NCBI GenBank assembly: GCA_001899175.1
Contig: MKVH01000024.1
Coordinates: 248,001 to 312,000 of the forward strand
Source: Candidatus Kapaibacterium thiocyanatum
Lineage (GTDB): Bacteria > Bacteroidota > Ignavibacteria > Kapaibacteriales > Kapaibacteriaceae
Length of the DNA stretch: 64,000 nucleotides
Direction: 5' to 3'
Part shown: positions 25,896-45,301 of the stretch, piece by piece
Layout of the letters: every line of letters begins with the position of its first letter
Position numbering within the stretch: position 1 is the stretch's first letter
The notes under the pieces: generated by a model
The model's input: only the letters and a program-made list of their open reading frames with translations
Told to the model about the DNA's origin: nothing
Databases searched by the model: none
Made by a program: the position numbers and the translations under genes

Positions 25896-25903
25896 CAAAG
25901 ATA
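25896..25903 (-). promoter_or_regulatory. Bacteroidota-type -7 promoter element of bamD
   Basis: The minus strand reads TATCTTTG, an exact TAnnTTTG match, in the 93-base era-bamD gap. The predicted leader is about 45 bases. No TTTG was seen at the -33 position. Confidence 0.5.
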
Positions 25904-25938
25904 GGGGAGAGGGACGCATTTATCCGGGAAATCGTGGG

Positions 25939-26862
25939 TCAGTAGCCGAGGTCGGCCAGCTGGTTGCGGTCGTTACGCCAGTCCTGGCGGACCTTGACGA
26001 AGAGTTCGAGGAAGACGGGCTGGCCGAGGTGCTCCTCGATCGCCGCGCGGGCTTCTTCGCCTACCTGCTTGAGTGCCGCACCCTTGGCGCCGATCATGAT
26101 GGCCTTCTGCGTATCCCGCTCGACGTAGACGTCGGCGGCGATATACCATTTGCCCTGTTCCCGTTCCTTGAACTCGAGGATGGCCACCTCGCTCGCATAG
26201 GGAATCTCTTCCTTGTACTTCCGGAAGATGACTTCACGGATGAGCTCGGCGACGAAGAAGCGTTGGGGCTGCGTGCTGAGCTCGTCTTCACCGTGGATGA
26301 AGGGGCCTTCGGGAACCAGGCCCTTGAGGATGTAGACCAGGTCTTCGACGTACGTCTCGTCCGACGCCGAGATGGCGATGGCCCGCGTGAAGAGGCCGCT
26401 CTGACGCGCCTCCTCCATCAGGGGGAGGGCTTCCTTCTTCACGGGCAGGGCGTCCATCTTGTTCAGTACGAGGACGACAGGACGGTTGTGCTTCTTCAGA
26501 AGGGGGGCGATCATCGGGTCGATGATCGTCTTGTGCTCCACGGCCTTGACGACATCGACGATGAGGCAAATGACGTCGGCTTCGTCGAGGGCTTCGCCCA
26601 CGAAGCCCATCATGGAGCGCTGCATCTTGTATCGCGGGACCAGGATGCCCGGTGTGTCGATGAAGATGAGCTGCGTCGTCTCGTCCGTCAGGATGCCCAG
26701 CACGCGCTTGCGCGTCGTCTGGGGCTTGGACGTGACGATGGAGAGGTGCGTACCGAGAATGGCATTGAGCAACGTGGACTTGCCCGCATTCGGGCGTCCG
26801 ATGATGGCGACCGTACCGCAGCGGGTGTCGATCGGTTCCGTGGTGTTCTGTGTGTCGGTCAT
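25939..26862 (-). CDS. era: GTPase Era (16S rRNA maturation / 30S assembly)
   Basis: The 307-residue protein has G1 GRPNAGKST, the switch region KPQTTRKRVLG, G3 DTPGI, G4 NKMD and G5 SASD, followed by the C-terminal KH domain (VAELIREVIFRKYKEEIPY, MIGAKGAALKQVGEEAR, VFLELFVKVRQDWR). Era binds the 3' end of 16S rRNA during 30S assembly. Its ATG overlaps the preceding small gene by ATGA. Length and all motifs are normal. Confidence 0.97.
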   Translation of the reverse strand: MTDTQNTTEPIDTRCGTVAIIGRPNAGKSTLLNAILGTHLSIVTSKPQTTRKRVLGILTDETTQLIFIDTPGILVPRYKMQRSMMGFVGEALDEADVICLIVDVVKAVEHKTIIDPMIAPLLKKHNRPVVLVLNKMDALPVKKEALPLMEEARQSGLFTRAIAISASDETYVEDLVYILKGLVPEGPFIHGEDELSTQPQRFFVAELIREVIFRKYKEEIPYASEVAILEFKEREQGKWYIAADVYVERDTQKAIMIGAKGAALKQVGEEARAAIEEHLGQPVFLELFVKVRQDWRNDRNQLADLGY

Positions 26863-29350: not shown

Positions 29351-32300
29351 TCAGCCCAGGGGCAGGACGTCGGCATAGACGATACGCTTGTCGAATGTCA
29401 ACTCCACGTCGCCACTATTCGATCCCTTGTCTCCGAGGCTGGTCGCGCGCCGGCGCGAATCCTGGGGATCGGAGTAGAACTGTTCGTATTCCTTGATCAC
29501 GACACGGTACTGGCTGCCGACGGCATCGGGCAGGGAGATCATGCCGGACCACATATTGGCCGCATGGATCCTGTCGATACGCTGTGTGACCACCGGTGTC
29601 CAGCCGAGATCGGACGAACCGGCGACGCCTGCGTCGCGCTTCTCCACGGTGACTTCCATTTCGCTGCCTTGCTGGCCCGTCGAATTCATACGATACGTGG
29701 GGCCGATGACGCTGACCGTGACGGCCTTGTCGTCGTCTTCTACCTTGACGATGGCCTGGCGGTCCGGCGGAATCTGGCAGAATTCGGACTGGACGACGCG
29801 CGAGACATAGACATCCTCGCCCGTATTCTCGTTGGCGACGGACTTCGGCTGCATGCGCACGAGAGCGAGGCGGATAAAGGGATAGTATGACTGACCTGGA
29901 TCTATTTCGATATCGCAATACCAGAGCTTGCGCTCCTTGTCGAACTTCGGCGTATATCCCACGCAGATGAATCGCTGCGTGGGCGCCACTTCGGCGATGG
30001 AGACACTGGTGAGGACCTTGGCCGGATTGATGAAGTTGGAGATGCGCGGCGAGTTGTCCGAGGGTGTCGGTGCGGACAGCCAGATGGGGTCTAGACCCCA
30101 TTGCGTGACATACGGATGGAGCTGCTCGGGAATGTCGAGCTTCAGGTCTCCCATCAGCGCGGCGATGGAGCCGAACTGCGATGCCTGCAGCCCCTTGCTC
30201 GCATCGATGGTCATGGACAGGCCCTTGAGCGTCGTCTTGTTGTCCTTGTTCTTGCTGTCCTTGCTGTCCGAACCGCTCGACGGATTCGTCGGCGTGAACT
30301 TCTGCGTGGAATAGAGCAGCACTCCGAGAAGTTCACCGTTGCCACTCGAATACCACGGCCGGTCGAGATAGACGCGCAGACCGCCGCCCTTGCGGGTGCT
30401 GGTGATGGTCTTGCCGGACATGACCTTCGCCTCTTCGACCCACTTGAACGAGGGTACGACATAGAGGAGGTTGGCGGCGTCCGGGCGCTTCGTGCTGAGG
30501 ACGTCGACGGCCTTGCCGATACCGCGACGTGTGAGGTTGGCGGCATCCTTGCGGAGTGCCGCCGGGAGATATTCGCGGAAGCGCGTCGTTGCCGTGGGCG
30601 TGTAGGTCACACCACGATACTTCGTATCGCCGAACTCGTGGATATGATCGTGTTCGATCTTGTCGTTGGTACGGTCTTCGCAGAGGTGTTCGTAGACGAA
30701 GCTGCTCTGCTTGAGAAGGACTGGTTCCGGTTTGAGAGGATCGTCCTCCCACATGTCCCACTCGGCGTTGACGTCGATCTTGTGCGACGTGCGGGCATGG
30801 ACGTAGGTGTCGGTCGTACGGATGCCGGCTTCCGTCGCACCGAAGAACCGTTCGTAGACGGAGAGGTCCTTGATCTCCGGCTTCCTGAGAGGCTTCTGCG
30901 TGGCATGGACGAGATGCAGGGTGCGCCCGGGTGTGACGAGCCAGCCCAGACCGCGTGCGGCAGCGTCCAGTGCGGCGGGCGTAAGCCCTGCCGCCCCGAG
31001 TGTCGCCCATTGTCCGAGCATGTCGAGGTTGGCGCCGCATTCCGTCTTCGTTTCACCGACGTTGGAGCTGAACGTGATCCATGCCTGCTCACCCTTCGGG
31101 AGGAAGATGGTGAGCACGCGTGTGCCGGGATCCCACGAAGGCTTGCCATTGCCGGAAGCCAGGCGGACGATGATGCTGCGGATGGCGGGCCATGACGACA
31201 TGGGGTCGAAGCAGACGCTGACGACACCGCCGGGCGATGCTATCGTGGCCGAGTTGACGCCGCCGAGCGTGACTTCCATGAACTCACCGGCCGTCATGCC
31301 GGGAATCTTCTGGAGCGTGACGCCGCGGGCGATGGGATCGGAGAGATAGGGGGCTTCCGTCGGACCGCTGTTCATGAAGGGATAGCGGATCGCTTCATCC
31401 TGCTGTGCAGGTGGCGGCGGGGTGTCGAGTCCGGCCTGGGGCTTCAGCGAGCCGTCGGTGCCGCGCGTATACCACTGCGACGGGATGTCCTTCTGGCGAC
31501 TCCTGATCATGTCGTAGGTACTCTGCTCGCCTCGCATGGGGCCGGTCGGCGTGGAGTCGAACATGCCGTGTCGTTCGCACGTCTGCTGGCTGGCAACGGG
31601 AGGGAAGAGGTGGCGATCCGACGTTTCGGCCGTATCGACTTCGTCGGTATCGTTCTCGCTCGCATTGTAGTTGCGGATGACGGCGCGCTCCAGGCTCTCG
31701 CCTTCCACGGGGTGATTGCGGAGGGCGATGGTAGGCGATACGACAGGATCCCAGCGGAGATAGTGGACCAGCGGCGTCGCACAGGTGAAGTCCGTCGGAT
31801 TCAGTTCATCCTTCTTCGGACCGTTGCCGTTGATGTCGGCGAAGCGTGCGCGCATCCGGTACTTGCGCCCGAACCGCAGCCGCGGCAGCGAGTTCTTCGG
31901 AACGCGGAATTCCGTTTCCACCTGGTACTCGAAGTCGGCCGGTGGCGTGCTCTTGCGCTGTTCCGCGGCGAGCTCGTCTTCCGTGCCGATGTAGGAGCCG
32001 ATGTGTGGGACGACGAGGCTCCAGCCTTCCCACTGTGCTACGATCTCATGGACGTAGAGGTCGCGGATGGGGGCGCTTTCCGAGCTGCGGGGCCGCGAGG
32101 CGGCCATGGACAGCACGCCTTCCTCGTCGTTCACGGCGAGGCCTTCCGTCCTGAGCGCGCCGGAAGCCAGCGGGAAACGATAGTTCGCATCACGACGGCA
32201 GAGGGAATCCCAGCGCCCTGCCGTTTCGTCCCAGATATCGATGCGATATCCGCGCAGCAGGTCGTCGGCATAGAGCAGTACTTCCTGTCCGGCGATGATC

Positions 32301-33712
32301 CTGTTGAAGTTCGCCGCCGATCGCAGCAGGGCCTTGGCCACCTTCAGGGCACGATTGTGCCGTACCAGGGAGAGGCCGGTTCCGCGCGTGCTCGGCGGTG
32401 CGGCGCTGACGCGTTCGTCGGGTGGCGTCCGTTCCACGATCCTGGGATCCTTGGGGTCCTTCTTGTCGTTCGGATCGGCCTTTCTCCTGAAGGACGGACG
32501 CATGTGCATCAGACGCTCCTTCAGACCGCGCGTGTAGTTGATCGTCTTGAGTGCTGCCGTATCGACGTCGATCTGCGTGATGCCGAAGTGCGAGGCATTG
32601 TTGAGGCAGAGAACGGGGCCGACGATTTCGGAGTCGTTCGACGGACGCGGCAGGAACTGCCAGTATCGGGGATCGCCGTCCATGTCGAGACGATAGGCGA
32701 CCTTGGGATTGCGGTGGATGGTGGGACTGGTCTTCGGATTGCTCCAGTCCGCCTTCACGCTGATGGCGCCTTCCTTGTCCACGCCGTCGGGGAGCGCGAA
32801 CTCGACGTGCAGGACGATGCCCAGCTTGCGCATCATCACGGGATATTCGCGCATGACGGAGACGACCTGGTGGAAATCGAACTTCGGACGTTCGATCTTC
32901 GGGCGGCCGACGCGGCGTGCCGCCTTGCCGTTGAGCTTGCCGTCGCGGGAATAGTTGCGGGCGGTATGATAGACTTCGGCCATGCGGAGCTGACCGAGCG
33001 GAGACGACGTGTCGAACGGCTGGAACAGCATGTTCTCCGGCTTCATCTCCTTGATGTCCACTGGACCCTGTTTGATGGGATGCGGTTGCGTAGATCCCTT
33101 GTCGCGCTCCATGGCCTCCATGCCCTGGATCTCCCAGCGTTCCTTCAGGGACTTGAATGCCTGGTCGCCCTCGTTGTCCGGTATCAAGTCCCGGATGATC
33201 TGGAGCGCCGGATGGAGCTGCTGTTGCGACTGCTGGTTGTTGTAGTAGCTGACATCCGTCGATGCGGCCGGCGCGATCGTCTCGGGCGTGATCACTGGCA
33301 TGTCGGCGCTGAACTCCTTGGCGAAGTTCTTGTACATCGCCGCGGTCGTGAGCAGGACGCCCTTGACGGGGAAGGAGACGATCTTGAAGTCCGTGAACGG
33401 CGTGTACTCGAAGGGCCGCACCATCGTGGTGGCGGGGAAGACTGCCTTCCATACCGTCGAGTCCGGCAGCTCGTCCTTGAACTTCAGGTCGCTATGGCCG
33501 ATCGTCGTGCCGTCGATGTCGATGCTGAATCGTATCGTGTTCAGCGTCGCGGGCCAGTCCACCATATCGGGATAGTCGCCGAGTTTGGCGGGTGCCGACG
33601 TACTGTCCTGCAGCTTGGGGAGGACGGCGATGGCCACGGAGAGCATCCGCTTCCCATCCCGCTGCTCCACGTCGTAGGGCACGGCTGTCCACTGAAATTC
33701 CTGTGAGCGCAT
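29351..33712 (-). CDS. Giant uncharacterised protein (1453 aa), second gene of the giant-protein operon
   Basis: I do not recognise this family. There is no signal peptide, transmembrane segment or nucleotide-binding motif. The sequence is mostly beta-rich with Ig/FN3-like stretches (YRMRARFADINGNG, VVIKEYEQFYSD), a Q-rich patch near residue 160 (QQSQQQLHPALQ), a basic linker near 410-440 (RRKADPNDKKDPKDPR), a Pro-rich patch (PPPPAQQDE) and a charged low-complexity linker near 1150 (SGSDSKDSKNKDNKT). Conserved-looking blocks include FHQVVSVMREYPVMMRKLG and HIHEFGDTKYRGVTYTPTAT. It follows the 1689-residue gene by 15 bases, so the two are co-transcribed. The two proteins are likely to work together. 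Confidence 0.8.
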   Translation of the reverse strand: MRSQEFQWTAVPYDVEQRDGKRMLSVAIAVLPKLQDSTSAPAKLGDYPDMVDWPATLNTIRFSIDIDGTTIGHSDLKFKDELPDSTVWKAVFPATTMVRPFEYTPFTDFKIVSFPVKGVLLTTAAMYKNFAKEFSADMPVITPETIAPAASTDVSYYNNQQSQQQLHPALQIIRDLIPDNEGDQAFKSLKERWEIQGMEAMERDKGSTQPHPIKQGPVDIKEMKPENMLFQPFDTSSPLGQLRMAEVYHTARNYSRDGKLNGKAARRVGRPKIERPKFDFHQVVSVMREYPVMMRKLGIVLHVEFALPDGVDKEGAISVKADWSNPKTSPTIHRNPKVAYRLDMDGDPRYWQFLPRPSNDSEIVGPVLCLNNASHFGITQIDVDTAALKTINYTRGLKERLMHMRPSFRRKADPNDKKDPKDPRIVERTPPDERVSAAPPSTRGTGLSLVRHNRALKVAKALLRSAANFNRIIAGQEVLLYADDLLRGYRIDIWDETAGRWDSLCRRDANYRFPLASGALRTEGLAVNDEEGVLSMAASRPRSSESAPIRDLYVHEIVAQWEGWSLVVPHIGSYIGTEDELAAEQRKSTPPADFEYQVETEFRVPKNSLPRLRFGRKYRMRARFADINGNGPKKDELNPTDFTCATPLVHYLRWDPVVSPTIALRNHPVEGESLERAVIRNYNASENDTDEVDTAETSDRHLFPPVASQQTCERHGMFDSTPTGPMRGEQSTYDMIRSRQKDIPSQWYTRGTDGSLKPQAGLDTPPPPAQQDEAIRYPFMNSGPTEAPYLSDPIARGVTLQKIPGMTAGEFMEVTLGGVNSATIASPGGVVSVCFDPMSSWPAIRSIIVRLASGNGKPSWDPGTRVLTIFLPKGEQAWITFSSNVGETKTECGANLDMLGQWATLGAAGLTPAALDAAARGLGWLVTPGRTLHLVHATQKPLRKPEIKDLSVYERFFGATEAGIRTTDTYVHARTSHKIDVNAEWDMWEDDPLKPEPVLLKQSSFVYEHLCEDRTNDKIEHDHIHEFGDTKYRGVTYTPTATTRFREYLPAALRKDAANLTRRGIGKAVDVLSTKRPDAANLLYVVPSFKWVEEAKVMSGKTITSTRKGGGLRVYLDRPWYSSGNGELLGVLLYSTQKFTPTNPSSGSDSKDSKNKDNKTTLKGLSMTIDASKGLQASQFGSIAALMGDLKLDIPEQLHPYVTQWGLDPIWLSAPTPSDNSPRISNFINPAKVLTSVSIAEVAPTQRFICVGYTPKFDKERKLWYCDIEIDPGQSYYPFIRLALVRMQPKSVANENTGEDVYVSRVVQSEFCQIPPDRQAIVKVEDDDKAVTVSVIGPTYRMNSTGQQGSEMEVTVEKRDAGVAGSSDLGWTPVVTQRIDRIHAANMWSGMISLPDAVGSQYRVVIKEYEQFYSDPQDSRRRATSLGDKGSNSGDVELTFDKRIVYADVLPLG

Positions 33713-33727
33713 GTGTCACTCCATCCT

Positions 33728-36700
33728 TTAGGCGAAACAATCGCAGTATTCCTGCCACATGGCGGGTTGAGGAAGCATGTCGGAGAAGGTAGGATCCCCA
33801 TCGCTGCCCTTGAGCTGGCGTTCGACGGTAACACCGACCGAAAAACTGATGAACAGGATTTCGATCTCCACTTCGATGGTCGCCGTCCCGTAAACTTTAC
33901 CGTTACTCTGCCACGTGAGCTTGAGTTCGAAGAGCAGGCTCACGCGGATGATACCGAGGATGGAAAGGTTGCCCGTCAGACGGAAGTATCCGGTGAGCTC
34001 GCTTTGCTGGACGAGCTTGCCGTCGATTTCCTTCTGTTCCATCTTGTAGTAGATACCGGCCATGACGGAGGCGCCGCCGCTGGCCACGCCGCAGTCGAAG
34101 GCGAAGTTGCCGCCGAATTCGAAGGCAGCCTCGAGCATCCGTACGCCGGTCGGCGTGATTTCGATACCGAAGAAGCCGCCGCCGCCGAAGACCATGATGG
34201 TGAGGCGGAACGGATTCTCCTTCGTGCAGAAGGCGAAGTAGGCCGAGAATGAGCGGCCGTCGAACGGAATGGTGAGCCGCATGAGGAAGGACATGTTCTG
34301 CAGCGAGAACACGCCGACGGTGACGTTCGGCAGGCCGATCGTCATGCTGGCCGAGATGCCGGTAGGCTGGACGTCGAAGTCGAAGGAGAATCCCACGCCG
34401 CCGGCGCTGCCGCCGCGCGGGATGAGGTCCTTGAGCTTGTTGACGAACGACAGGGCCCCGGCGAATTCCACACTCTGGATGTCGGGGTCGATGTCGGGCT
34501 TCTCGCCGAGCTTGGCGGAAAAGGCCAGGCGCGTGAACTTGATGACGAGGAACTGCGCCGCACCGTCGCCGATGAGGTTGATGACGAAGTTCGAGAGCGA
34601 ACCGTACAGCAGGATCTCGGGCGGATTGAGGTCGAGCTTCTTGGTGAACGAGGCCTTGAGGTAGAGGATGGCCTGGTCGTCCTTGTCCGTCGCTCCCGGA
34701 TTCAGCGGTACCAGGATGTTGCCCGGACTGCTCTTGATCTCCGTACTCCATTCATAGACGAGCTGGAGGCCCTGCTTGAGCTGCTGCAGGCCGTCCTGCA
34801 CTTCCGTGTACTTCTTGTAGGCTTCGTTGCCCGCATCCTTCAGCGGCTTCAGCGCCTTCTCGATCTCGCTCTTGAGTTCGTTGACCTTGTCCTCGACGCG
34901 CTTCTTCCATTCCTTGATGCGGTCTTCGACGACCTTCTTGCCACCGTTGATGTAGCCCTGGATTTCATTCTTGACCTTGTCCACTTCGTCGACGAGCGCC
35001 TGCTTGGCATCCTTGACATCCTGGGAGACGTCGGAGGCGAGTTTCTGCGCTTCGGTCTTGATGGCGTCGGCCTTGCTCTTGATGTCGTTCACATCGTCCT
35101 TGATGCCGTAGTCATCCTTTCGGTCGAGACCGGGCATCTTGTCGATGTTGTTGAGCATGTTCTGCACGAAGTCGAGCACGTCCTTCAGCGTGATGTCGCC
35201 CAGGATCTTCGTCTTGAGCAGGTCTTCGAAGAACTGCATCGGATCGAAGTTGCCCACGGCCGCTGCGGTATTGGCGATGTTCTCGAGGTCGCCGGGAATC
35301 GGACCGAGAGCACGCGAGAGACCGCCGATGTTGACGCTCGGAGCGGCGAGGCCGCCGGACTTGTCGGACTTCGCGCTGAAGTCCATCATCAGCGGAGAGA
35401 GGAGTCGCGCGAAGATCTGCGACGGATTCTTGATGTCGGCAGGATTGACCGGTGCGCCCTTGGCCGGTGTCGGGCCCTGTTCGAAGGCGTGGTCGAGATA
35501 CTTCTGATAGTAGACGATGGAACGCTCTGCATCTGCACCGACGAGTTCGGCCACCTTGTCGAGCTTGACCATCGACGATTCCATCTTCGGGAAGAAGATG
35601 GGATAGTTGACCGGCGCCGTCGGCGATGCATAGCCCGAGAGCTTGAAGACGTTGACGAGCAGCGACGTATCGCCGAGCTTCGAGCTCGGCGCCAGGGCGA
35701 TGGACTGCCCCTGCATCTTGATGTTGCGTCGCTTGTCGTTCTGGGCCTTGACGTACTGGTTGTCGATCCATCCGTTCAGCCTCGTCGCATCCGTCGTGGC
35801 ATCCGGATTGGCGAGGAAGACGAGCGGCGTGGAGAACTGGATCTCGTTGTTGTCCCAGTCCGTACCGACGCAGCTCCAGGCCACGTCCTGTATCGCACCG
35901 TTATGGCTGAACTGCGGCCAGAAGGAATTGGTCGAGAACTGCGGCGACAATTGCACAGGCAGTTCGAGATTCGGCGTGACCTTCGTGGTGATGCGGACGC
36001 GGCGGAACGGGAAGTCGCGCCCCTGATAGGACATGCCCTTCAGGCCATCGGCAGGGAATTCGCGGACAGGCTCGCGCAGCATGATGAACATGCGCTGCAT
36101 GAGATAGGCGGCCATGTCGCCGCGCGGTGTGCGGCGGAACTTGCGCTCCGTTTCCTTGATGAGCGTGGCCCTGTTGCCGAACGGGAAGAGGAAGCCCTTG
36201 TAGGCGACGCGCACGAAGCTGTCGCGCCCCTGGGCGCCCCGCTGGACCCAGCTTTCCACTTCGAGATTGTCCTCGCCGATCGGGTCCCACGCACCCGTGC
36301 TGTCCATCCACGCGCCGAGCGACGTCAGCATCATGCGATTGACCTGTACCGGAGCCGGCTTGGTCTTCTTCATCGCATAGTCGCTGGTGAGCTGGACGAT
36401 TTCGTGGCGGTCGCGACGGTTGAGCGAGGTGCGGAACGGACGTTCCTTGTAGATGGCGCTCATCTCGCGGAAGGTGCCGAAGTCGGGAGACCAGATGGCC
36501 CGCACGGTACGGAAGTAGGCTGCGTGTTCGTCGACGGAACCGTCGGAATGCTTCACGCCGAGGCGTGTATGCCACAGCTCGGCCCTGCGGGAATCGGGAT
36601 CGATCCTCGCCGTCTTCGCATGGGCCCATCCCGCATACTTGTTGGGCGAGAGCATCAGGCGGTAGGGATACTCGATCGACGTTTCGTCGGCCTGCGGTTC

Positions 36701-38797
36701 CCTGATCGGGGGACGTTGATTGACCACGGCGATGAGCTCGTCCATGACCTGCGGCGACAGGGCCGTGGCCATGTCGGGATCGAACTCGTACCGGTCCTTG
36801 ATGTCGGAACGTTCCGAAAGCTGTGCCGCGGCACCGGCCTGGAGCGTGTACTTCTTGAAGGCCGACGAGCTGCCGCCCGACGCCGTGGGTGGTTGACTGG
36901 CTTTCGCCCTGGTCCTGGCCAGCTTGAAGGGCTTCACGTTCTTCGTGGCCGCTTCCGTGCTGAGGGCGTACCTGGACAGGAAGCTCGTGTTGAGGATGCC
37001 GAACGTGAGCGCCACTTCGGGAGGCTTGGCCGACGGCGAGACGTTCAGCGTGAACTTCGACCAGTCGAGCAGACCTTCGATGCTGTACGTGCCGGAATAG
37101 CCGTTCGGGACGTTGAAGGCCAGGCGCGAGTCCTGGGCCATCACGGCGTCGATGGGAGGGTCCAGCGGCGGCTCGTCCGAACCGCTCGGAGCGCTGTTCG
37201 GATATCCTTCGTTCGGCTTCTTCTTGGGATTGGCGTTCGGATCGGTGTAGAAGAAGGCGCGTTCGGCGATGTGCTGCGGCTGGAACCATACGACCAGCTT
37301 GCCTGAACCGCCGAATGTCCCTGCCGACTTGTTGATGGTCAGGCCGACGAATTCGAAGGTGAGGACGAGCAGGTCTTCGGGACGGATGACGTTGACGCGG
37401 GGATTGTTCGGCAGGCCGAACTTCACCTTGCCCCACCGGCCGAGGTCTTTGCTGACCTTGTAGTTCTTCTTCGCTTCCTTGCTGAGCGATGCGCCGTCGA
37501 TCTGCTTGATCGTCGAGACGTTCTGCTTGAAGTCGATCTGCAGCCCGGCCATGTGGAAGGCCGGAGCGGGCAGGACCTTGCTCGACACGGCCGACGTGAG
37601 GAATGCCACCTGCATGCCATGCTGCATACGTACCGGTTCGGTGACGGCGCCTTCCATGGGAATGCTGTATCGCAGCAGGCCCGGCGCCACGTGCAGGCGG
37701 TCGATGATGCCGTTGCGGCTGACGATTTCCAGGGGCGGAATCTCGCGGCGATCACCGAGTTCCAGGGATATGCCGTCGACGTTCATCCAGACGGGCGTTT
37801 CGGGATAGCGGGCGACGAAGGCTTCGTGCAGCCCTTCCTCCGTGCGTGTCCATGCATAGCGTACGTCACGAAGGGGCAGGTCGGCGTCCGTATCGCGTGC
37901 GCGGAAGACGACGCCGCCTTCGCGTGAGCCTTCGAGGACGACGGCGGCACGACCATCGTCGGCCACTTCATAGGACAGCATGTCGAAGGCATCATGATGG
38001 GCGCGCAGCGTCCAGTCTTCCACACCGGCGACCTGTAGGGGCACGGTCCACGCGGCATTGTCGCGATGCAGGCGTATCAGCGTGCGGCTGTGCGCACTCT
38101 TCGCGAGCATCGTGCGTTGGGTGGAATCGAGGAGGGAGATCGTGCATCGTACCGAAGGCAGGTGGAGTGAGCCAACCGTCGTAACGGATCCGCCTCGCAG
38201 GCCGACGGCCCACATCGGACGGAAGGTGACGTCGGCATTCGCAGGACTCTGGCCCGCGAACTCGCCTGACGTCAGCACCGTAGCGCATCCCGCATGGCCT
38301 CGCGCCATCTCCTTGTCGAGCAGCCAGGGGACGAAGGGCGCTTCGAGTTCCGCCTGCCACGCGTGGAGCGTGAACCGTGCGTCGGGTGCCGCACCGCGGC
38401 CGATATATGCATCGAGGTCGGCGGAAATGTCCGTTCCCGGGAACAAGGCACCGCGAAGACGGACAACGATGCCCGTATCCGTTTCCTTGCAGTCGATGAC
38501 GGGGCTGCCACCGAATCGCTTCGGATCCAGTACCCAGCGCTCGACGCCTGCCACGAGGAAGGCGATCTTCTGACCGCGGCGGACGAGACGATAGGTGGCC
38601 TCGAATGCCGTGGTGATGGCCTGTGCCATCGGTGCTGCGGTAAGGGAGAGCAGCCCGGTGATGCCGAGTGCCTGGCGACGTGTGAAGCCGAAGCCGTCCG
38701 GTCGCTGAACGACGTCAGCCACCGTACGGGGCTCGACAGGGATGCGGGGTAGCGCTCGAGATCGAAGAGCGGAAATGTTGAGACCGTGTCGTTTCAT
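33728..38797 (-). CDS. Giant uncharacterised protein (1689 aa) with twin-arginine-like signal, coiled coil and beta-rich C-terminus
   Basis: I do not recognise the family. After a 38-residue N-region comes FTRRQALGITGLLSL...AQA (residues 38-60), a twin-arginine-like export signal. A large beta-rich body follows with repeated plate-like strands, then a long charged coiled coil at about 1230-1346 (SKADAIKTEAQKLASDVSQD, EDRIKEWKKRVEDKVNELKS), and a glycine- and phenylalanine-rich beta C-terminus (VFGGGGFFGIEITPTGVRML, FEFGGNFAFDCGVASGGAS) ending WQEYCDCFA. Start: ATG 38797 has GAGGGG 9 bases upstream and a promoter-like pair behind it; a TTG at 38866 extends the frame but is less likely. First gene of the operon with the 1453-residue protein. 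Confidence 0.8.
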   Translation of the reverse strand: MKRHGLNISALRSRALPRIPVEPRTVADVVQRPDGFGFTRRQALGITGLLSLTAAPMAQAITTAFEATYRLVRRGQKIAFLVAGVERWVLDPKRFGGSPVIDCKETDTGIVVRLRGALFPGTDISADLDAYIGRGAAPDARFTLHAWQAELEAPFVPWLLDKEMARGHAGCATVLTSGEFAGQSPANADVTFRPMWAVGLRGGSVTTVGSLHLPSVRCTISLLDSTQRTMLAKSAHSRTLIRLHRDNAAWTVPLQVAGVEDWTLRAHHDAFDMLSYEVADDGRAAVVLEGSREGGVVFRARDTDADLPLRDVRYAWTRTEEGLHEAFVARYPETPVWMNVDGISLELGDRREIPPLEIVSRNGIIDRLHVAPGLLRYSIPMEGAVTEPVRMQHGMQVAFLTSAVSSKVLPAPAFHMAGLQIDFKQNVSTIKQIDGASLSKEAKKNYKVSKDLGRWGKVKFGLPNNPRVNVIRPEDLLVLTFEFVGLTINKSAGTFGGSGKLVVWFQPQHIAERAFFYTDPNANPKKKPNEGYPNSAPSGSDEPPLDPPIDAVMAQDSRLAFNVPNGYSGTYSIEGLLDWSKFTLNVSPSAKPPEVALTFGILNTSFLSRYALSTEAATKNVKPFKLARTRAKASQPPTASGGSSSAFKKYTLQAGAAAQLSERSDIKDRYEFDPDMATALSPQVMDELIAVVNQRPPIREPQADETSIEYPYRLMLSPNKYAGWAHAKTARIDPDSRRAELWHTRLGVKHSDGSVDEHAAYFRTVRAIWSPDFGTFREMSAIYKERPFRTSLNRRDRHEIVQLTSDYAMKKTKPAPVQVNRMMLTSLGAWMDSTGAWDPIGEDNLEVESWVQRGAQGRDSFVRVAYKGFLFPFGNRATLIKETERKFRRTPRGDMAAYLMQRMFIMLREPVREFPADGLKGMSYQGRDFPFRRVRITTKVTPNLELPVQLSPQFSTNSFWPQFSHNGAIQDVAWSCVGTDWDNNEIQFSTPLVFLANPDATTDATRLNGWIDNQYVKAQNDKRRNIKMQGQSIALAPSSKLGDTSLLVNVFKLSGYASPTAPVNYPIFFPKMESSMVKLDKVAELVGADAERSIVYYQKYLDHAFEQGPTPAKGAPVNPADIKNPSQIFARLLSPLMMDFSAKSDKSGGLAAPSVNIGGLSRALGPIPGDLENIANTAAAVGNFDPMQFFEDLLKTKILGDITLKDVLDFVQNMLNNIDKMPGLDRKDDYGIKDDVNDIKSKADAIKTEAQKLASDVSQDVKDAKQALVDEVDKVKNEIQGYINGGKKVVEDRIKEWKKRVEDKVNELKSEIEKALKPLKDAGNEAYKKYTEVQDGLQQLKQGLQLVYEWSTEIKSSPGNILVPLNPGATDKDDQAILYLKASFTKKLDLNPPEILLYGSLSNFVINLIGDGAAQFLVIKFTRLAFSAKLGEKPDIDPDIQSVEFAGALSFVNKLKDLIPRGGSAGGVGFSFDFDVQPTGISASMTIGLPNVTVGVFSLQNMSFLMRLTIPFDGRSFSAYFAFCTKENPFRLTIMVFGGGGFFGIEITPTGVRMLEAAFEFGGNFAFDCGVASGGASVMAGIYYKMEQKEIDGKLVQQSELTGYFRLTGNLSILGIIRVSLLFELKLTWQSNGKVYGTATIEVEIEILFISFSVGVTVERQLKGSDGDPTFSDMLPQPAMWQEYCDCFA

Positions 38798-38836
38798 CGC
38801 ACCAAACCCCTCGGGTTCGTTAGAACGTGACTCGCG

Positions 38837-38867
38837 CAAAGAAACGGCGTTTGCGGGTAATCTCAAA
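38837..38867 (-). promoter_or_regulatory. Candidate -33/-7 promoter of the giant-protein operon
   Basis: On the minus strand TTTG (38864-38867) is followed after exactly 19 bases by TTTCTTTG (38837-38844), one mismatch from TAnnTTTG. The spacing fits Bacteroidota promoters. The predicted start gives a leader of about 35 bases to the ATG at 38797 and would exclude the TTG start at 38866. Confidence 0.45.
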
Positions 38868-38910
38868 TGCCGATTTTTTCACGCGCCTTCGAAATTCCAA
38901 AACCGAAAAA

Positions 38911-38939
38911 GTTCCAACATTGGTGAGTATGTTTGGAAC
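38911..38939. promoter_or_regulatory. Inverted repeat overlapping the RCC1-gene promoter element
   Basis: GTTCCAA at 38911-38917 and TTGGAAC at 38933-38939 form perfect 7-base arms with a 15-base spacer. A further TTCCAA lies at 38895-38900. The right arm overlaps the -7-like element TATGTTTG, so a protein bound here could control both divergent transcripts. Confidence 0.4.
38928..38935 (+). promoter_or_regulatory. Bacteroidota-type -7 element for the RCC1-repeat gene
   Basis: TATGTTTG matches TAnnTTTG exactly, about 75 bases before the ATG at 39011. No TTTG was found at -33. Confidence 0.4.
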
Positions 38940-39010
38940 AACCTGATTCTACGATGCGTCGGTAGGCCCGATTCATCAACTGGCTGTCACGTTCACACCG
39001 GGGGTCCCGA

Positions 39011-41833
39011 ATGAGCAGGTGGACAATACCTATTCTTTACGTCCTGACATGCCTGATCGTGGCATCCGTTTCCGGTGCCGCGCAGGAAATGGTCGACGTT
39101 CGCCTTACCCAGCCGCCACCCAATCAACTCCGCGTCGCCGATCTCTGGAAGGTCGAACTCAACAACAGAGGAAGAACGACCGTCAGGGTCCGTCTGCATG
39201 GTACGGTCGAAGAGACGTCCGTACCCGACGGCATCATCGCCGATGCCACCACGCGCATCATCGTTCTCGAGCCGGGACGCAAGGTCGTCACCGGAGCCGA
39301 CGTCCAGCCTGTATCCATCGATCAGGCCAATGCCCGTTATCGTGACGCACTGCTGCAGACGGGGAACGTGCCGACGGGCGACTATACGGTATGCTGCGAA
39401 GTGATCTCCGCGGAGACGGAGCAGGTGCTCGGACGCGATTGCAAGTTCATCGTCATCAATCGCATGTCGCAGCCGGTGCTGATCAGCCCGCCCGACGAAT
39501 CCGATATCCAGGAGAAGCTTCCCGTCTTCACGTGGATGGCGAGCGTGCCGCCGGGGCCTGGCCAGCGCATCGCCTACAACCTCCGTATCGTGGAGATCTT
39601 CGGCAAGCAAACGCCGGCCGACGCCATGGCGAGGAATCCCGCATGGTTCGAGGCCAACGGCCTTACGCGCATGCTCCTGCAGTATCCTATATCGTCACGT
39701 GCCTTCGAATACGATCGCAGCTATGCATGGAAGATCACGGCCGTCGAAGATCGTGGGGGCAGGGCCCTCGTCAATCTCGGCGAGAGCGAGATATGGTCGT
39801 TTACGCCGCGTCGTCCGGAACGTGGTGAAGAGGATACGACGGGGACCGGTACAGGAGGCGGTGCAAGGCCGCCCGTGACGAAGGCCGACGAAACGTGTCC
39901 GGGCGAGAACTGGGACTTCGAACTGAAGTCGCTCGCGTGCTGGACGCTCGACGGCGATGCCTTCCGGCGTGGTCCGCAATCGGGAGCCCATCCCGTTCTC
40001 GGAGAACTCGGTCATCATCGCGAGCAATGGGTCACGTCGTACGGCGACGTTCAGGGCGACGCCATGATGGGCGTGATGTATTCCGAAGAATTCCAGATCA
40101 AGAACAGTGCCGTCGGCTTCATCTATGGCGGAACGGCCGCGAACGACGTCGCCGTGGAATTGCTCGTCGAACGTCTGCCGAAGGATACCTTCAAGCTCGA
40201 AACGCGCCGGCTGCCGGAATCGCAGCGTGAATACTACGTGGCGAAGTCGACGGCGATGGACAAGAAGGCGGCGATGTCCGACAGGCTCGCCCCTGTCGAA
40301 TGGGACGTGACGCGCTTCATCAATCGCGCAGCCCGCGTCTATATCAAGGACCAGTCGAAGACGGGGCACCTCAACGTCGATAACTTCCGGTTCTACGACC
40401 TCGAGAAGGGCGATTCCGTCAAGCTTCCGGTGCTCGTGATGGCAGCGGGAGAGAATCATTCGTTGTCGGCAACGCCGGACGAGAAGCCGCCGAAGTCGAT
40501 CCGTGACCAGTTCACGAAGGACATCACGGATCTGAAGGCATCGAGGGCCGCGATCTCCGACGTCCAGGTCGTGAACCAGACGTCGACCAGCATCAAGGGC
40601 CGGCTCTCCACCGTCGCCCAGATGAGCCAGTTCGCGGCAGCGGAAACGATTCCGGAGAACACGCAGGTTCCGGAAATCAGCGGCGTCGAATACAATCCCC
40701 AGGTGATGAGCCAGATGAAGCTCTTCGCGCTGACGCTGCTGGACCCCAAGAACACCGTGTGGGGTTGGGGCAACAACTACAAGCGCGCCGTCGCCAAGGC
40801 CTACGGTGCCATCGTCCAGTCGCCCTCCAAACTCGATGCCACGAAGGTCAAGGACGTCCAGGCACTGGCCGCCGGTATGGCCCAATCCTTCGCCGTCATC
40901 AAGGGCGGTAACGTGAAGGGATGGGGACTCAACGACTACGGACAGATCGGGAACAATACGCGTTCGGACGTCGCCGAACCCACGCAGATCCAGCTTGCCA
41001 ACATCCTCGCAGTATCCACGGGCGCGCGGCACAGTGCGGCCATCAGCACTACCGGCGACGTATGGATGTGGGGCTACAACAGGAACGGCGAACTGGGCAC
41101 GTGGCTCACGCAGAGTTTCAATGCCACGACGGGGCAGGTGGACGGAGTGCTGCACGTGCTGAAGCCGTTCAAGCACTTCGTGCTGAGAGGGGCCCGTTCG
41201 GTCTCCTGCGGTGGCGCGCACACGGCCAGCGCCTCGCTCGCCGGGGAAGTCTATTGCTGGGGCGCCAATACGTACGGTCAGTGCGGGGGGGATCCCGACG
41301 AAGGCAGCGTGACGTGGCCATCGAAGATCGTCTTCCCCGTTCAGCGTCCGCAGATCACCAACGTTTCGTGCGGAGACTTCCATACGCTCGCCCTCGGTGC
41401 CAACGGCAGCGTGTGGGCATGGGGAGGTAATGCGAGCGGTCAGCTCGGTGACGGTACGACGAAGGACCGCACGCAGGCCGTCCAGGTGAAGGGCCTGAAA
41501 GGCATCAAGGCCATCGCTGCCGGTAGCACGTTCTCCCTCGCTCTCGACTCGACGGGAACCGTATGGGCCTGGGGTAACAATTCCGTCGGCCAGCTCGGCG
41601 ACGGTACCAGGGTAGGCCGCCGTGAACCCGTCAAGGTTTCCCGTCTCGATGCCGTGACCGGCATCGTGGCCGGTGGTGCGCATGCCATGGCCGTCCGTAT
41701 CGACGGCGGTCTGTGGACGTGGGGCACCAACGAATACGGTCAGCTCGGCGAAGGGGACGTCGTCAATCTCGCGCCGACACCTGCCGATCCGCCGATAGGA
41801 CCGCTTCGTGTCGAACGTCTGGCCGCACCATAA
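39011..41833 (+). CDS. Secreted RCC1-repeat beta-propeller protein with Ig/FN3-like N-terminal domains
   Basis: The 940-residue protein has a signal peptide (WTIPILYVLTCLIVASVSGAAQ). Residues about 25-150 and 155-270 are beta-sandwich-like (LISPPDESDIQEKLPVFTW, YAWKITAVEDRGG). A cysteine-containing lectin-like region with NWDFELKSLACWTLDGDAF and VYIKDQSKTGHLNVDNFRFYD spans about 300-470, and a Gln/Thr-rich linker reaches about 575. The last 360 residues are RCC1 repeats (VWGWGNN, VKGWGLNDYGQIG, VWMWGYNRNGELG, VYCWGANTYGQCG, VWAWGGNASGQLG, VWAWGNNSVGQLG, LWTWGTNEYGQLG): seven copies, enough for one closed seven-bladed propeller. No T9SS sorting domain is seen at the C-terminus. It is divergent from the giant-protein operon and 23 bases upstream of the barrel gene. 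Confidence 0.85.
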   Translation: MSRWTIPILYVLTCLIVASVSGAAQEMVDVRLTQPPPNQLRVADLWKVELNNRGRTTVRVRLHGTVEETSVPDGIIADATTRIIVLEPGRKVVTGADVQPVSIDQANARYRDALLQTGNVPTGDYTVCCEVISAETEQVLGRDCKFIVINRMSQPVLISPPDESDIQEKLPVFTWMASVPPGPGQRIAYNLRIVEIFGKQTPADAMARNPAWFEANGLTRMLLQYPISSRAFEYDRSYAWKITAVEDRGGRALVNLGESEIWSFTPRRPERGEEDTTGTGTGGGARPPVTKADETCPGENWDFELKSLACWTLDGDAFRRGPQSGAHPVLGELGHHREQWVTSYGDVQGDAMMGVMYSEEFQIKNSAVGFIYGGTAANDVAVELLVERLPKDTFKLETRRLPESQREYYVAKSTAMDKKAAMSDRLAPVEWDVTRFINRAARVYIKDQSKTGHLNVDNFRFYDLEKGDSVKLPVLVMAAGENHSLSATPDEKPPKSIRDQFTKDITDLKASRAAISDVQVVNQTSTSIKGRLSTVAQMSQFAAAETIPENTQVPEISGVEYNPQVMSQMKLFALTLLDPKNTVWGWGNNYKRAVAKAYGAIVQSPSKLDATKVKDVQALAAGMAQSFAVIKGGNVKGWGLNDYGQIGNNTRSDVAEPTQIQLANILAVSTGARHSAAISTTGDVWMWGYNRNGELGTWLTQSFNATTGQVDGVLHVLKPFKHFVLRGARSVSCGGAHTASASLAGEVYCWGANTYGQCGGDPDEGSVTWPSKIVFPVQRPQITNVSCGDFHTLALGANGSVWAWGGNASGQLGDGTTKDRTQAVQVKGLKGIKAIAAGSTFSLALDSTGTVWAWGNNSVGQLGDGTRVGRREPVKVSRLDAVTGIVAGGAHAMAVRIDGGLWTWGTNEYGQLGEGDVVNLAPTPADPPIGPLRVERLAAP

Positions 41834-41856
41834 TCGTCAACCATAGATCACTCGCC

Positions 41857-43800
41857 GTGCGCCATCTTCCCCGGTCGATCGGAATGGTCGTGATGTGTCT
41901 GTTCTGCGCCATTCCCGTACGAGCCCAGTTCTTCGTGTTCGGTGCGGACAAGGGCGAAGCCCCCGTGATGTTCACGGGTGGTTATCGCATTCTCGGACAG
42001 GCCTCCAACAGACAGGGGAGTTTCCAGGAAAAGCCTCCGGATCTCTGGCGTATGGAGCTGAATCCGACGCTGACGATCTACGGAGTGCCGATCACGGCCA
42101 ACATCCTGATGAGCAGCGAGCAGTCGGGAATACGGCAGGACATCAATGCCTTCTCGCTGATGCTGGATCCCGATGCCATCAAGCGCATCGTCACGCAGCG
42201 TGCCTACCGCATGCTGGAGGACTTCGCCAGAAGCGAGAGCGGTGAGCTTCTCGAGAACTACGATGCCGTGCGTGACTCGCTCGCACAGTACGATCCGGAA
42301 CGGCTCAAGCAACTGGATGCCGTACGCAAGGTTCAGGAGATGCGCGACGTAGCCAATGGCGACGTCACGGGGTATACGTCCTATCTCCAGCAGCTCGGCA
42401 TCATGTCCGACGCGGAGGAATTCATCAGCCACCTGCCGACCGTCGGTGTAGGAACGGTATTCCCGGTCTTCTCTCCGATCACGGTGAGCGGCATACGTCT
42501 CCAGGGTGGCAGTCTGGAATGGAATCCGGGCTGGTTCTATATCCATCTCGCGACCGGCACGACACAGGCGCCGCTGACACGCCTCGATACCTTCCGTCTC
42601 GACTCGGGTCTGTATGCCAACTACGATCAATCGTCGTTCGGACGCCGCCTGACTGCGGCCAAGGTCGGTTTCGGACGCAAGGATGGTCCGCACATCTTCT
42701 TCACCGGCGTCTATACCATCGATGACAGGACGAGCCTGTCGATCGTCGATTCCAACACGTCGCTGACACCGCAGAAGAACATGCTCGGAGGACTCGACTT
42801 CAAGGTCGAACCCATCGAAGGTATATGGAGCCTGCAGGCCGAGGCGGCGCTGTCGCTCACTGCCGGTGATCAGAACGCTCCGCAGTTCGCATCGAAGGAT
42901 ATTCCGCAATTCCTTCTCGACCTCGTCGACGGTTCGTCGTCGACCTACGTGGACTGGGCCCTGACGGCCGCCACGACGGTCAACGTCCGCAGCAGCGGCA
43001 CCAAGTTGTCCGCCTCCGTACGGCGCGTCGGACCCGGCTTCCGCGCCCTTGGTGTACCGAACCTCCGAACCGACATCTTCCGCTACGATGCGCGCGTCGA
43101 CCAGGCCCTCTGGAAACGGCAGATGACGGTGGGATTGTTCATGCGCCGCGACCGGGACAATCTCATACCCTGGAAGCGTGCCACGAGTACGATCACGAGC
43201 ATCGGTGCGACACTCGGCCTCAATATCCGCAAGTGGCCCTACCTGCGTCTGTCGTATGCACCGTACGTTCAGGAGAGCGATGCGACCAATCCGCTCCTGC
43301 AGTACGTCAACCGTACGACGATGATCACGGCCGCTTCGGGCTACAGCTACCGCATCGGTGAACTCGGTGCCGGAACCAACCTCAACGTGGCCACGCAGAA
43401 CAGCGAGACGAAGGGCAATCTCTACGACTACAGGGTCACGAGCATCAATCTCTCGCAGAACCTGTCACTCGAGATTCCGCTGACGCTCGGACTCGGCCTG
43501 GGCTACATCGTGCAGACCAGCGAGCAGGCGGGACGCAATACGATCTATACCGTCGATGGCTCGGCGTCGTACTACTTCTTCGACGTCGTGAATACCAGTG
43601 GTGGACTGACCGTCGCCATGGACGATACCTACGGCACGCGGACGGGCTTCTTCCTCGGCGTGAACGCTCCCTTGTGGGAATATGCCGTCGTCGACCTCCG
43701 TGTGGAGCGTAATCTCTTCAACGAACGCGTCACACCTGCCGTCCTCGGTGGCACGTATCAGGAGAACATCGTCCGCCTCTCGATTTCACGGAGCTGGTAG
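41857..43800 (+). CDS. Outer-membrane beta-barrel protein
   Basis: The protein has about 647 residues. The proposed GTG start gives a regular signal peptide (RHLPRSIGMVVMCLFCAIPVRAQ, cut after residue 24); ATG 41884 is an alternative with a shorter N-region. A periplasmic helical segment rich in Asp and Arg (about 110-190: LMLDPDAIKRIVTQRAYRML, LEDFARSESGELLENYDAVR) interrupts an otherwise beta-stranded sequence. The C-terminal 300 residues alternate in the manner of a barrel (FLGVNAPLWEYAVVDLRVER) and end VRLSISRSW; a terminal aromatic residue is the usual BAM recognition signal. It is co-transcribed with the RCC1 gene. A role as outer-membrane port or anchor for the neighbouring secreted proteins is inference. 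Confidence 0.8.
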   Translation: MRHLPRSIGMVVMCLFCAIPVRAQFFVFGADKGEAPVMFTGGYRILGQASNRQGSFQEKPPDLWRMELNPTLTIYGVPITANILMSSEQSGIRQDINAFSLMLDPDAIKRIVTQRAYRMLEDFARSESGELLENYDAVRDSLAQYDPERLKQLDAVRKVQEMRDVANGDVTGYTSYLQQLGIMSDAEEFISHLPTVGVGTVFPVFSPITVSGIRLQGGSLEWNPGWFYIHLATGTTQAPLTRLDTFRLDSGLYANYDQSSFGRRLTAAKVGFGRKDGPHIFFTGVYTIDDRTSLSIVDSNTSLTPQKNMLGGLDFKVEPIEGIWSLQAEAALSLTAGDQNAPQFASKDIPQFLLDLVDGSSSTYVDWALTAATTVNVRSSGTKLSASVRRVGPGFRALGVPNLRTDIFRYDARVDQALWKRQMTVGLFMRRDRDNLIPWKRATSTITSIGATLGLNIRKWPYLRLSYAPYVQESDATNPLLQYVNRTTMITAASGYSYRIGELGAGTNLNVATQNSETKGNLYDYRVTSINLSQNLSLEIPLTLGLGLGYIVQTSEQAGRNTIYTVDGSASYYFFDVVNTSGGLTVAMDDTYGTRTGFFLGVNAPLWEYAVVDLRVERNLFNERVTPAVLGGTYQENIVRLSISRSW

Positions 43801-43987: not shown

Positions 43988-45301
43988 TTACTGCTTGATT
44001 TCCCAGTACAGCGTGCGGCGCAGCTCCTTGATCCATTCCTGTTCCTGACGCTGCTTCTTCTCCATGGCGGCCATCTGCTCGATGAGCTTGATGTCTTCCT
44101 GGAGTGTCGGCTTGTGCTCGGGAACGAGCTGCTTGCGGTACATGATGTGGAAGCCCGGCTTCGTAGGGTCGGCTGCGTAGGGCATCGGATCGCTCATGCC
44201 GCCATCCTTCAGGTTGACGATGACGGAGCGCATGTCTTCGGGAAGGCGGGCGAGATCGACCTGGCCCATGGAGCCGCCGAAGCCCATCGTTTCCTTTTCT
44301 TCGGAGAACTGGCGTGCGGCGTCTTCGAAGCTCATTCCTTCCTCGATCTTCTTCTTGACGTCGAGCAGGGCTTCGCGGGCGCGGTCACGATCGCTGTCCG
44401 ACTGGCCTACGCGCAGCAGGATATGACGGCAGTTGATGGCCGAAGTGTTCTTGTCGATCAACTGGATGATATGATAGCCGAAGGGCGTTTCCACGGGCTG
44501 GGAAATCTCGTTCGGCTGCATGGCGAAGGCTACCGCTTCGAAGGCGGGAACGAACTTGCCCTTCTCGACGAAGCCCAGGTCGCCACCGTTGCTCGCCGTG
44601 CCGGGGTCTGCACTGTAGCGGCGGGCGAAGTCGGAGAACGATCCGCCCTTGAGGATGGAGTCGCGGATACGCAGGGCCAGACCGTAGGTCTCCTTCTTCT
44701 GATCGTCGGAGGCCTTGATGTACTTCACGATGTGGGCGAGCTCAACGCGTGCCGGAACGTTCTGGAGCGAGTCGAGATAGCGGCCGTAGAAGTCTTCCAC
44801 TTCGGCACGCGAGGCCTTGACGTTGCCGAAGCGTTCGTTGCGGATCTTCTCGGCGAGGATCTGCTTGCGGATCTCCTCGCGGAATTCGCGGCGGATCCGT
44901 GCCATGGACATGCCGTAGATGTCTTCGATGCGTTTTTCCGAGCCGAACTGCTGGACCAGCATCTGGATCTGGTAATCCATGCGCTGCGTCACCTCGTCGT
45001 CGGATGCCGTCACCGAGTCCTCCAGGGCCTTGGACACGACCAGACGCTCGTTGATCAGGGCGTCGAGGATGTACTGCCGCAGCTTGGGGTCGTTACGGTC
45101 GATCTTCGGATCCCGTTGTGCCAGCAGCTCTATCTGGCCGTCCACGTCGGACTTCAGCACGATCTCCTTCCCGACCACGGCGACGATGCGCTCCACGGCA
45201 TTGGGTTGTGCGATGGCAAGAGGGCCTGCCAGGGCGAACAGGACGACGATGATGACGATGCGGTGCATGGACGGCCTCAGAGGCGGAACAACGTTGATCA
45301 T
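43988..45301 (-). CDS. Periplasmic SurA-like chaperone / peptidyl-prolyl isomerase
   Basis: The 437-residue protein has a signal peptide (HRIVIIVVLFALAGPLAIAQ). The SurA N-terminal chaperone region follows (VERIVAVVGKEIVLKSDVDGQIELLAQ, DALINERLVVSKALED, RRIRREFREEIRKQILAEKIR), then two parvulin domains: about 190-290 (ELAHIVKYIK, NGGDLGFVEKGKFVPAFEAVAFAM, PFGYHIIQL) and 300-395 (CRHILLRVG, GGSMGQVDLARLP, GFHIMYRKQ). SurA escorts unfolded outer-membrane proteins to the BAM complex. Start is in an ATGA overlap with the preceding PPIase gene; ATG 45268 is an alternative. It suits the barrel proteins encoded nearby. Confidence 0.9.
   Translation of the reverse strand: MINVVPPLRPSMHRIVIIVVLFALAGPLAIAQPNAVERIVAVVGKEIVLKSDVDGQIELLAQRDPKIDRNDPKLRQYILDALINERLVVSKALEDSVTASDDEVTQRMDYQIQMLVQQFGSEKRIEDIYGMSMARIRREFREEIRKQILAEKIRNERFGNVKASRAEVEDFYGRYLDSLQNVPARVELAHIVKYIKASDDQKKETYGLALRIRDSILKGGSFSDFARRYSADPGTASNGGDLGFVEKGKFVPAFEAVAFAMQPNEISQPVETPFGYHIIQLIDKNTSAINCRHILLRVGQSDSDRDRAREALLDVKKKIEEGMSFEDAARQFSEEKETMGFGGSMGQVDLARLPEDMRSVIVNLKDGGMSDPMPYAADPTKPGFHIMYRKQLVPEHKPTLQEDIKLIEQMAAMEKKQRQEQEWIKELRRTLYWEIKQ

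Follow-up and report, generated by a model that had tools for sequence, protein, structure and literature searches.

An unnamed pair of giant proteins beside a putative outer-membrane module in Candidatus Kapaibacterium thiocyanatum

Do four large neighboring genes of Candidatus Kapaibacterium thiocyanatum encode a single cell-surface apparatus, or do they belong to two systems that can occur apart? The window analyzed here was a stretch of 64,000 nucleotides from contig MKVH01000024.1 (positions 248,001 to 312,000), and its source genome has a size of 3.27 Mb. Two giant genes on the minus strand, P0002 (38797..33728, 1689 amino acids (aa), 186 kDa) and, 15 bases downstream of it, P0001 (33712..29351, 1453 aa, 162 kDa), are separated by a divergent intergenic region of 213 bases (38798..39010) from two genes on the plus strand, P0003 (39011..41833, 940 aa) and P0004 (41884..43800). 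The open reading frames (ORFs) confirmed this four-gene divergent arrangement, which, an earlier note had suggested, encodes a surface apparatus with a barrel in the outer membrane, a propeller on the outside and the two giants as cargo or scaffold. That proposal proved plausible for P0003 and P0004 as an add-on module, and the main finding is that the two giants form a pair of their own, which is widely conserved and has no name. Functions suggested below for the giants are proposals only and are unproven.

Conservation of the giant gene pair

Relatives of P0002 were collected by scanning 84,980 species genomes once with a pattern-based search, which was not exhaustive and yielded 76 loci, and in a plasmid collection, which yielded 15 records; six of these records were analyzed with the 76 loci, for a total of 82. 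These loci are not all independent, as many come from metagenome-assembled genomes (MAGs) and some are identical to genomes in the set of 40 discussed below. In 67 of the 82 loci the P0002-type gene had a P0001-type gene downstream of it on the same strand, and in the remaining 15 the available sequence stopped inside P0002 or no more than 288 bases past it. Three of four further plasmid records also contained two neighboring giant genes, and the fourth (L207) only a fragment. According to the record titles, the pair occurs in Bacteroidota, Acidobacteriota (Aminicenantes), Chloroflexota, Actinomycetota (Cellulomonas and Streptomyces) and Pseudomonadota (Thiothrix, Rhodoblastus, Mesorhizobium, Cupriavidus and Rhizobium).

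Where both genes were complete (53 loci), the spacing between them ranged from -4 to 309 bases and was 50 bases or less in 45. The distance matrices of the two proteins were strongly correlated across 53 loci (r 0.955, Mantel p 0.001, 999 permutations), which is support rather than proof, since shared genome ancestry alone could produce such a correlation. Because the genes are adjacent and co-oriented wherever the sequence suffices, and their sequences diverge in step, the two proteins very probably form one complex. In relatives from the same family the giants were again long stop-free frames, mostly at ~48-63% identity, so these frames are more than chance. The exception was G019, where the P0001-type gene was split in two frames (L090:3373-7640, minus strand), reflecting a frameshift or an assembly error. 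An alternative TTG start of P0002 sits 69 bases upstream but is improbable, given that alignments with relatives begin at the ATG. The G+C content was 0.615 at the locus versus 0.606 across the window.

The giants had been called unrecognised on the basis of their sequences, and the library searches agreed. For P0002, searches of Pfam, NCBIfam, PADLOC and PHROGs gave only sub-threshold matches, nearly all of them in a coiled coil at residues ~1195-1380; one match, to IglG (residues 1036-1071, E 0.28), lay outside it. P0001 had nothing reliable in these four libraries or among PDB sequences, and its match to HGLS (E 0.013) was under the cut-off. No reliable relative of the giants was present among the 60 of 118 PDB sequence matches listed, phage records contained no match to either protein, and a viral fold library gave weak, scattered matches, none of them convincing. 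A literature search of open-licence PubMed Central (PMC) papers found no account of the pair, which does not by itself establish its absence from print. None of the families in these libraries includes either giant, and the pair is new within the limits of the libraries and papers searched.

Some copies differed in size or setting. In three alphaproteobacterial loci (L203, L205 and L206) the giants were 3052-3311 aa plus 1766-1899 aa, and a Pfam scan of the Sinorhizobium pair (L203, 3052 + 1766 aa) found no domain. On an Agrobacterium vitis plasmid the pair (L202:27287-35673, plus strand) lies just upstream of the dpdE-H DNA-modification genes, and its P0001-type gene is in two frames. One P0001-type protein (L191:13373-18166, plus strand) contained a lectin-like Laminin_G_3 insert at residues 831-984. 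Both giant genes were also found on a putatively viral 16.7 kb contig (L220), classed as such in IMG/VR. Outside the Kapabacteria group, no neighboring gene recurred beyond close relatives. The neighbor set comprised 79 genes from 26 loci, after 32 of 111 genes in up to 30 loci had been removed by hand (module genes, doubtful frames and near duplicates), and no Pfam family was found in more than three of its members.

The locus in related genomes and the putative adaptor/barrel module

Among the 40 genomes examined, P0002 was found in 17, including its own, and P0001 in the same 17, always both. A P0003-type gene or fragment lay beside the giants on the same contig in 16 of the 17 carriers; in the other (G025) they are parted by a contig end. 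In 14 carriers the barrel gene and a giant gene were on the same contig, and genes or parts of all four were on a single contig in 11 by our tally; contig ends cut the locus in five (G007, G013, G017, G025 and G033). The layout was divergent in the family of the window and in G031, G033 and G037, and collinear in G034, L132, L160 and L170, so divergence is not essential. At this site the four genes come and go together: at the matching position of the related genome G002, where both giants are missing, only 59 bases separate a SurA gene from an SRPBCC-like gene, and all four genes are absent from that gap. The SurA gene adjoined the barrel gene in 11 of the 12 carriers of family f1, and the twelfth (G016) was cut by a contig end; in the window the SurA-type peptidyl-prolyl isomerase is encoded at 43988-45301 on the minus strand, next to P0004. 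The giant pair was rare in the phylum of the window (13 of 296 genomes in a draw). A Kapabacteria-type locus was also present in a record titled Bradyrhizobiaceae (L124), a label that looks wrong, and the Kapabacteria-like long form was found in a Chloroflexi MAG (L168) and a Nitrospirota MAG (L184).

P0003 is, as had been suggested, an RCC1-repeat protein with a Sec signal. It contained six RCC1 stretches (Pfam PF00415, E 1.9e-60), with repeat-like sequence from about residue 580 and the best-scoring part at residues ~728-940 (41192..41833). Its N-terminal signal and adaptor domain occupy residues 1-275 (39011..39835), and the domain itself (residues ~25-270) also heads proteins of up to ~2500 aa beside P0004-like barrels at the sites that were fetched. 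In two four-gene loci (L160 and L132) the P0003-type protein had the adaptor domain and no RCC1 repeats; judged from these sequences, the propeller is an optional part.

The interpretation of P0004 as a barrel protein stood in part. Its signal peptide and aromatic C-terminus (SRSW) were confirmed, and the start was corrected: the longest ORF that has a start codon runs from 41713, but the signal peptide begins at GTG 41857 or ATG 41884, so the protein has ~638-647 aa. Its signal, its C-terminus and its membership in a recurrent family of similar size point to an outer-membrane beta-barrel; the sole hint in Pfam was DUF3575 (E 0.091).

Away from the four-gene locus, at least 12 of 20 places with a P0004-like gene had an adaptor-domain gene adjoining it by our tally. 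At nine such sites, blastp confirmed both relatives in seven, and only the P0003-type relative in two (L211 and L218). In genome G039, which has no giants, the adaptor domain and the barrel were fused in one protein of 895 aa (L214:3123-5810, minus strand; E 6e-36 and 3e-54), which is a strong sign that the two touch. Four of 19 adaptor-domain sequences matched the TANFOR model TIGR02542 at E ≤ 0.1 (best E 3.7e-7), and P0003 itself gave no match to it; by its sequence, the adaptor domain appears to be a divergent TANFOR relative. The genome also encodes SprA of type IX secretion. The divergent RCC1/barrel pair is a lineage-specific module, and its combination of adaptor and barrel recurs without giants. 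In G021 (L096, G021:C227), a genome that is 90% complete and in which no TatC was found, an intact barrel gene adjoins the remains of a P0003-type gene interrupted by in-frame stops, and the giants are missing.

What became of the single surface apparatus? It is supported in part: the linkage of the four genes and their absence as a block from G002 speak for it within this group. The earlier note had itself named independent occurrence of the two gene pairs as the observation that would count against it, and outside the Kapabacteria group this is what was seen: many other bacteria, among them Gram-positives without an outer membrane, have the giant pair and no module, and adaptor/barrel pairs occur without giants. 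The absence of the RCC1 propeller, the suggested outside part, from two four-gene loci also counts against it, as does the unlinked barrel gene of G031, and a role of the giants as cargo of the barrel is conjectural.

Export signal and predicted folds of the giants

One of the giants had been suspected to have a twin-arginine-like signal, and such a signal is present in P0002: FTRRQALGITGLLSLTAAPMAQA. Within the signal region (residues 1-60, 38618..38797, minus strand), residues 39-60, TRRQALGITGLLSLTAAPMAQA, follow a conserved n-region and contain the twin-arginine motif (RR at 40-41), a hydrophobic core and an AxA site (AQA at 58-60). All 12 close sequences in the alignment, P0002 among them, have R40 and R41, though the n-region varies. 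Signals for twin-arginine translocation (Tat) were judged across the family by a motif test (RR plus a hydrophobic core) and by eye. The motif test identified 41 of 75 P0002-type N-termini, RR was seen by eye in 15 more, and the same thresholds identified none of 64 P0001-type N-termini. Very large alphaproteobacterial versions (2277-3311 aa) likewise start with Tat-type signals. TatC was found in the genome of the window (G000:C3, E 4.3e-65) and in 39 of the 40 genomes, comprising 17 of 17 carriers and 22 of 23 non-carriers. Tat export of P0002 in this lineage is quite probable, and the pattern of signals fits co-export of the pair with one signal, without being proof of it. On a conjugative plasmid of Sinorhizobium (L203) a TatA-like gene (25898-26065, plus strand) directly follows the giant pair; this single case may be a coincidence.

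The fold of P0002 was predicted through a short homolog, L165 (993 aa, signal-less, from an Anaerolineae MAG), using an alignment of 40 sequences; the mean predicted local distance difference test (pLDDT) score was 80.8. The C-terminus of this model (residues 772-967, corresponding to ~1464-1663 of P0002, 33809..34408, minus strand) was an antiparallel beta-meander with strongly two-faced strands, one face hydrophobic and one polar, with residues alternating. The region was retained in the Cellulomonas and Streptomyces copies (L181, L197 and L201). The fold search says little about the model outside residues 772-967, and the coiled-coil stretch of P0002 (~1225-1355) has no counterpart in L165. 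Residues H726, E740-L-W-H743 and R858-D859 of P0002 were invariant in an alignment of 40 sequences.

P0001 was modeled from residue 254 to 1453 with an alignment of 37 sequences (pLDDT 81.5), and the model consisted of arrays of beta-sandwich domains resembling fibronectin type III (FnIII) and immunoglobulin domains. It matched complement C5, alpha-2-macroglobulin and FnIII chains with low template modeling (TM) scores, so these matches show a type of domain and not kinship. Identification of P0001 as a member of the complement/alpha-2-macroglobulin family was considered and rejected. The long series of beta-sandwiches is shared with C3, C5 and alpha-2-macroglobulin (Foldseek E 3e-8), but TM scores were ≤ 0.17, there was no Pfam match, and the C-x-E-Q motif was absent; some members of that family have no thioester.

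A proposed export complex and its alternatives

The overall explanation that we favor, with a probability of roughly 0.4, is a giant beta-rich complex that is exported by Tat here and coupled to an added outer-membrane module. P0002 and P0001 would be two subunits of one complex of ~350 kDa and would fold together in the cytoplasm, and P0001 would leave as a hitchhiker on the Tat signal of P0002, a step to which we lean. A precedent for co-export on one signal is known from the hitchhiker complexes HybOC and PaoABC, which resemble the giants in being co-encoded proteins with only one twin-arginine signal (PMC4273604). Those are enzymes of ordinary size, whereas the two proteins here are giants in which no cofactor family is recognised, and one family member in four is signal-less. 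P0001 would form an elongated stalk of beta-sandwich domains, and the C-terminus of P0002 a curved amphipathic beta-sheet with a hydrophobic face that binds lipid or another hydrophobic ligand. The ligand is the weakest step, a favored guess that we regard as doubtful. Large lipid transfer proteins have large amphipathic sheets, and one of them, microsomal triglyceride transfer protein, was a weak Foldseek match (E 6e-3, TM < 0.1), but there was no match to these proteins as a sequence family. Kapabacteria and some relatives would have added a Sec-exported protein, the N-terminal adaptor of which probably docks onto P0004, an outer-membrane barrel of its own. Here the adaptor protein also bears the RCC1 propeller, and the giant complex would work at the outer membrane; the odds that the giants work with the barrel seem to us about even. 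It is improbable that every part holds at once, namely an unnamed multi-phylum two-gene system in which a ~350 kDa heterodimer crosses by Tat in a folded state and carries hydrophobic molecules within the envelope in a beta-groove, coupled in Kapabacteria to a barrel by a TANFOR-like adaptor.

Several observations weigh against the favored explanation. The twin-arginine motif was absent from 19 of 75 P0002-type members, including the modeled L165, so Tat export is not universal in the family, and the signal-less copies must act in the cytoplasm or exit otherwise. A harder hydrophobicity threshold was passed by only 20 of the 75 P0002-type N-termini; among 64 P0001-type N-termini, a softer one picked out 8 that have a hydrophobic stretch of some kind but no RR, and the harder one picked out none. 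The presence of TatC does not discriminate, because nearly all non-carriers have it too. A folded complex of 350 kDa is far above usual Tat substrates, for which a size of 20-70 Å is given (PMC4273604). In G031 the barrel gene is on another contig, although the locus does not border the end of its own. Finally, the best matches to the meander of L165 were porins, and the Foldseek TM scores of this model were low (≤ 0.15 by query and ≤ 0.34 by target).

The porin matches are also the starting point of an alternative in which P0002 ends in a true membrane beta-barrel and acts in the outer membrane or as a pore former, with P0001 as its periplasmic or extracellular part. Porins were at the top of the VIA-align list (CymA, Z 14.1, rmsd 4.9 over 188 residues; OmpG 4ctd, Z 12.5), LptD was the best Foldseek match (E 2.7e-4), and the strands alternate polar and hydrophobic residues; an antiparallel amphipathic meander is a feature that P0002 shares with CymA and OmpG. 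Unlike in these porins, however, the meander ends a giant protein, it occurs in Gram-positives, and no sequence relation was found. Its retention in Actinomycetota, which do not have that kind of outer membrane, argues against a membrane barrel, as do the signals: Tat-type signals are unusual for barrels, and 19 of 75 copies have no twin-arginine signal. We consider this alternative unlikely. Because the Gram-positive copies keep the meander, a ligand-binding groove is preferred, a preference between groove and barrel that the data do not decide. Only slightly less credence was given to a giant enzyme or sugar-binding surface protein with an unrecognisable active site built on E740-L-W-H743, H726 and R858-D859 of P0002. 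The invariance of these residues and the Laminin_G_3 insert of one P0001-type protein are in its favor, but no enzyme family scored above the cut-off (HGLS included), there was no solved relative by sequence, and the invariant residues may be structural.

Two further alternatives concern toxins and phages. TANFOR proteins have been described as polymorphic toxins and hypothesised to be type IX substrates (PMC7073777), and the adaptor and barrel might use type IX secretion to deliver either the giants or the propeller. P0003 resembles what that source describes in its Sec signal and in a TANFOR-related N-terminal domain that heads long proteins, in a genome with SprA, and the TIGR02542 matches of four adaptor sequences agree with this. 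P0003 itself did not match the model, however, no toxin family in Pfam was detected in any of the four proteins, and P0003, unlike the TANFOR toxins as described there, ends in RCC1 repeats and has a dedicated barrel partner as the next gene, with no recognised toxin or immunity partner; toxin delivery is thus given little weight. An accessory anti-phage defence system appears more improbable still. The patchy occurrence of the pair, in 17 of 40 genomes and so few of the phylum draw, would suit such a system, as would plasmid copies beside dpdE-H or methylase/helicase genes and a few strong single matches among the 79 neighbors, to mad2 (E 2.6e-55, two members) and N-6 DNA methylase (one). On the other hand, PADLOC gave only coiled-coil noise for P0002 and nothing for P0001, none of the first 25 of 100 families was found in more than two of the neighbors, with many cross-matches among DEAD-box helicases, Tat export would be odd for such a system, and one IMG/VR contig and no phage record carried the pair.

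The pair occupies ~7 to 16 kb, its genes have stayed together on plasmids and in at least five phyla, and the main family libraries do not recognise it, so it likely does something that nobody has named. If Tat does carry the complex, the known size range of folded export would be stretched. The fusion of adaptor and barrel offers a tangible starting point for working out how the outer membrane may be reached by TANFOR-like proteins of Bacteroidota. Cultured carriers, including Streptomyces, Cellulomonas, Cupriavidus, Thiothrix and Splendidivirga, make the pair testable.

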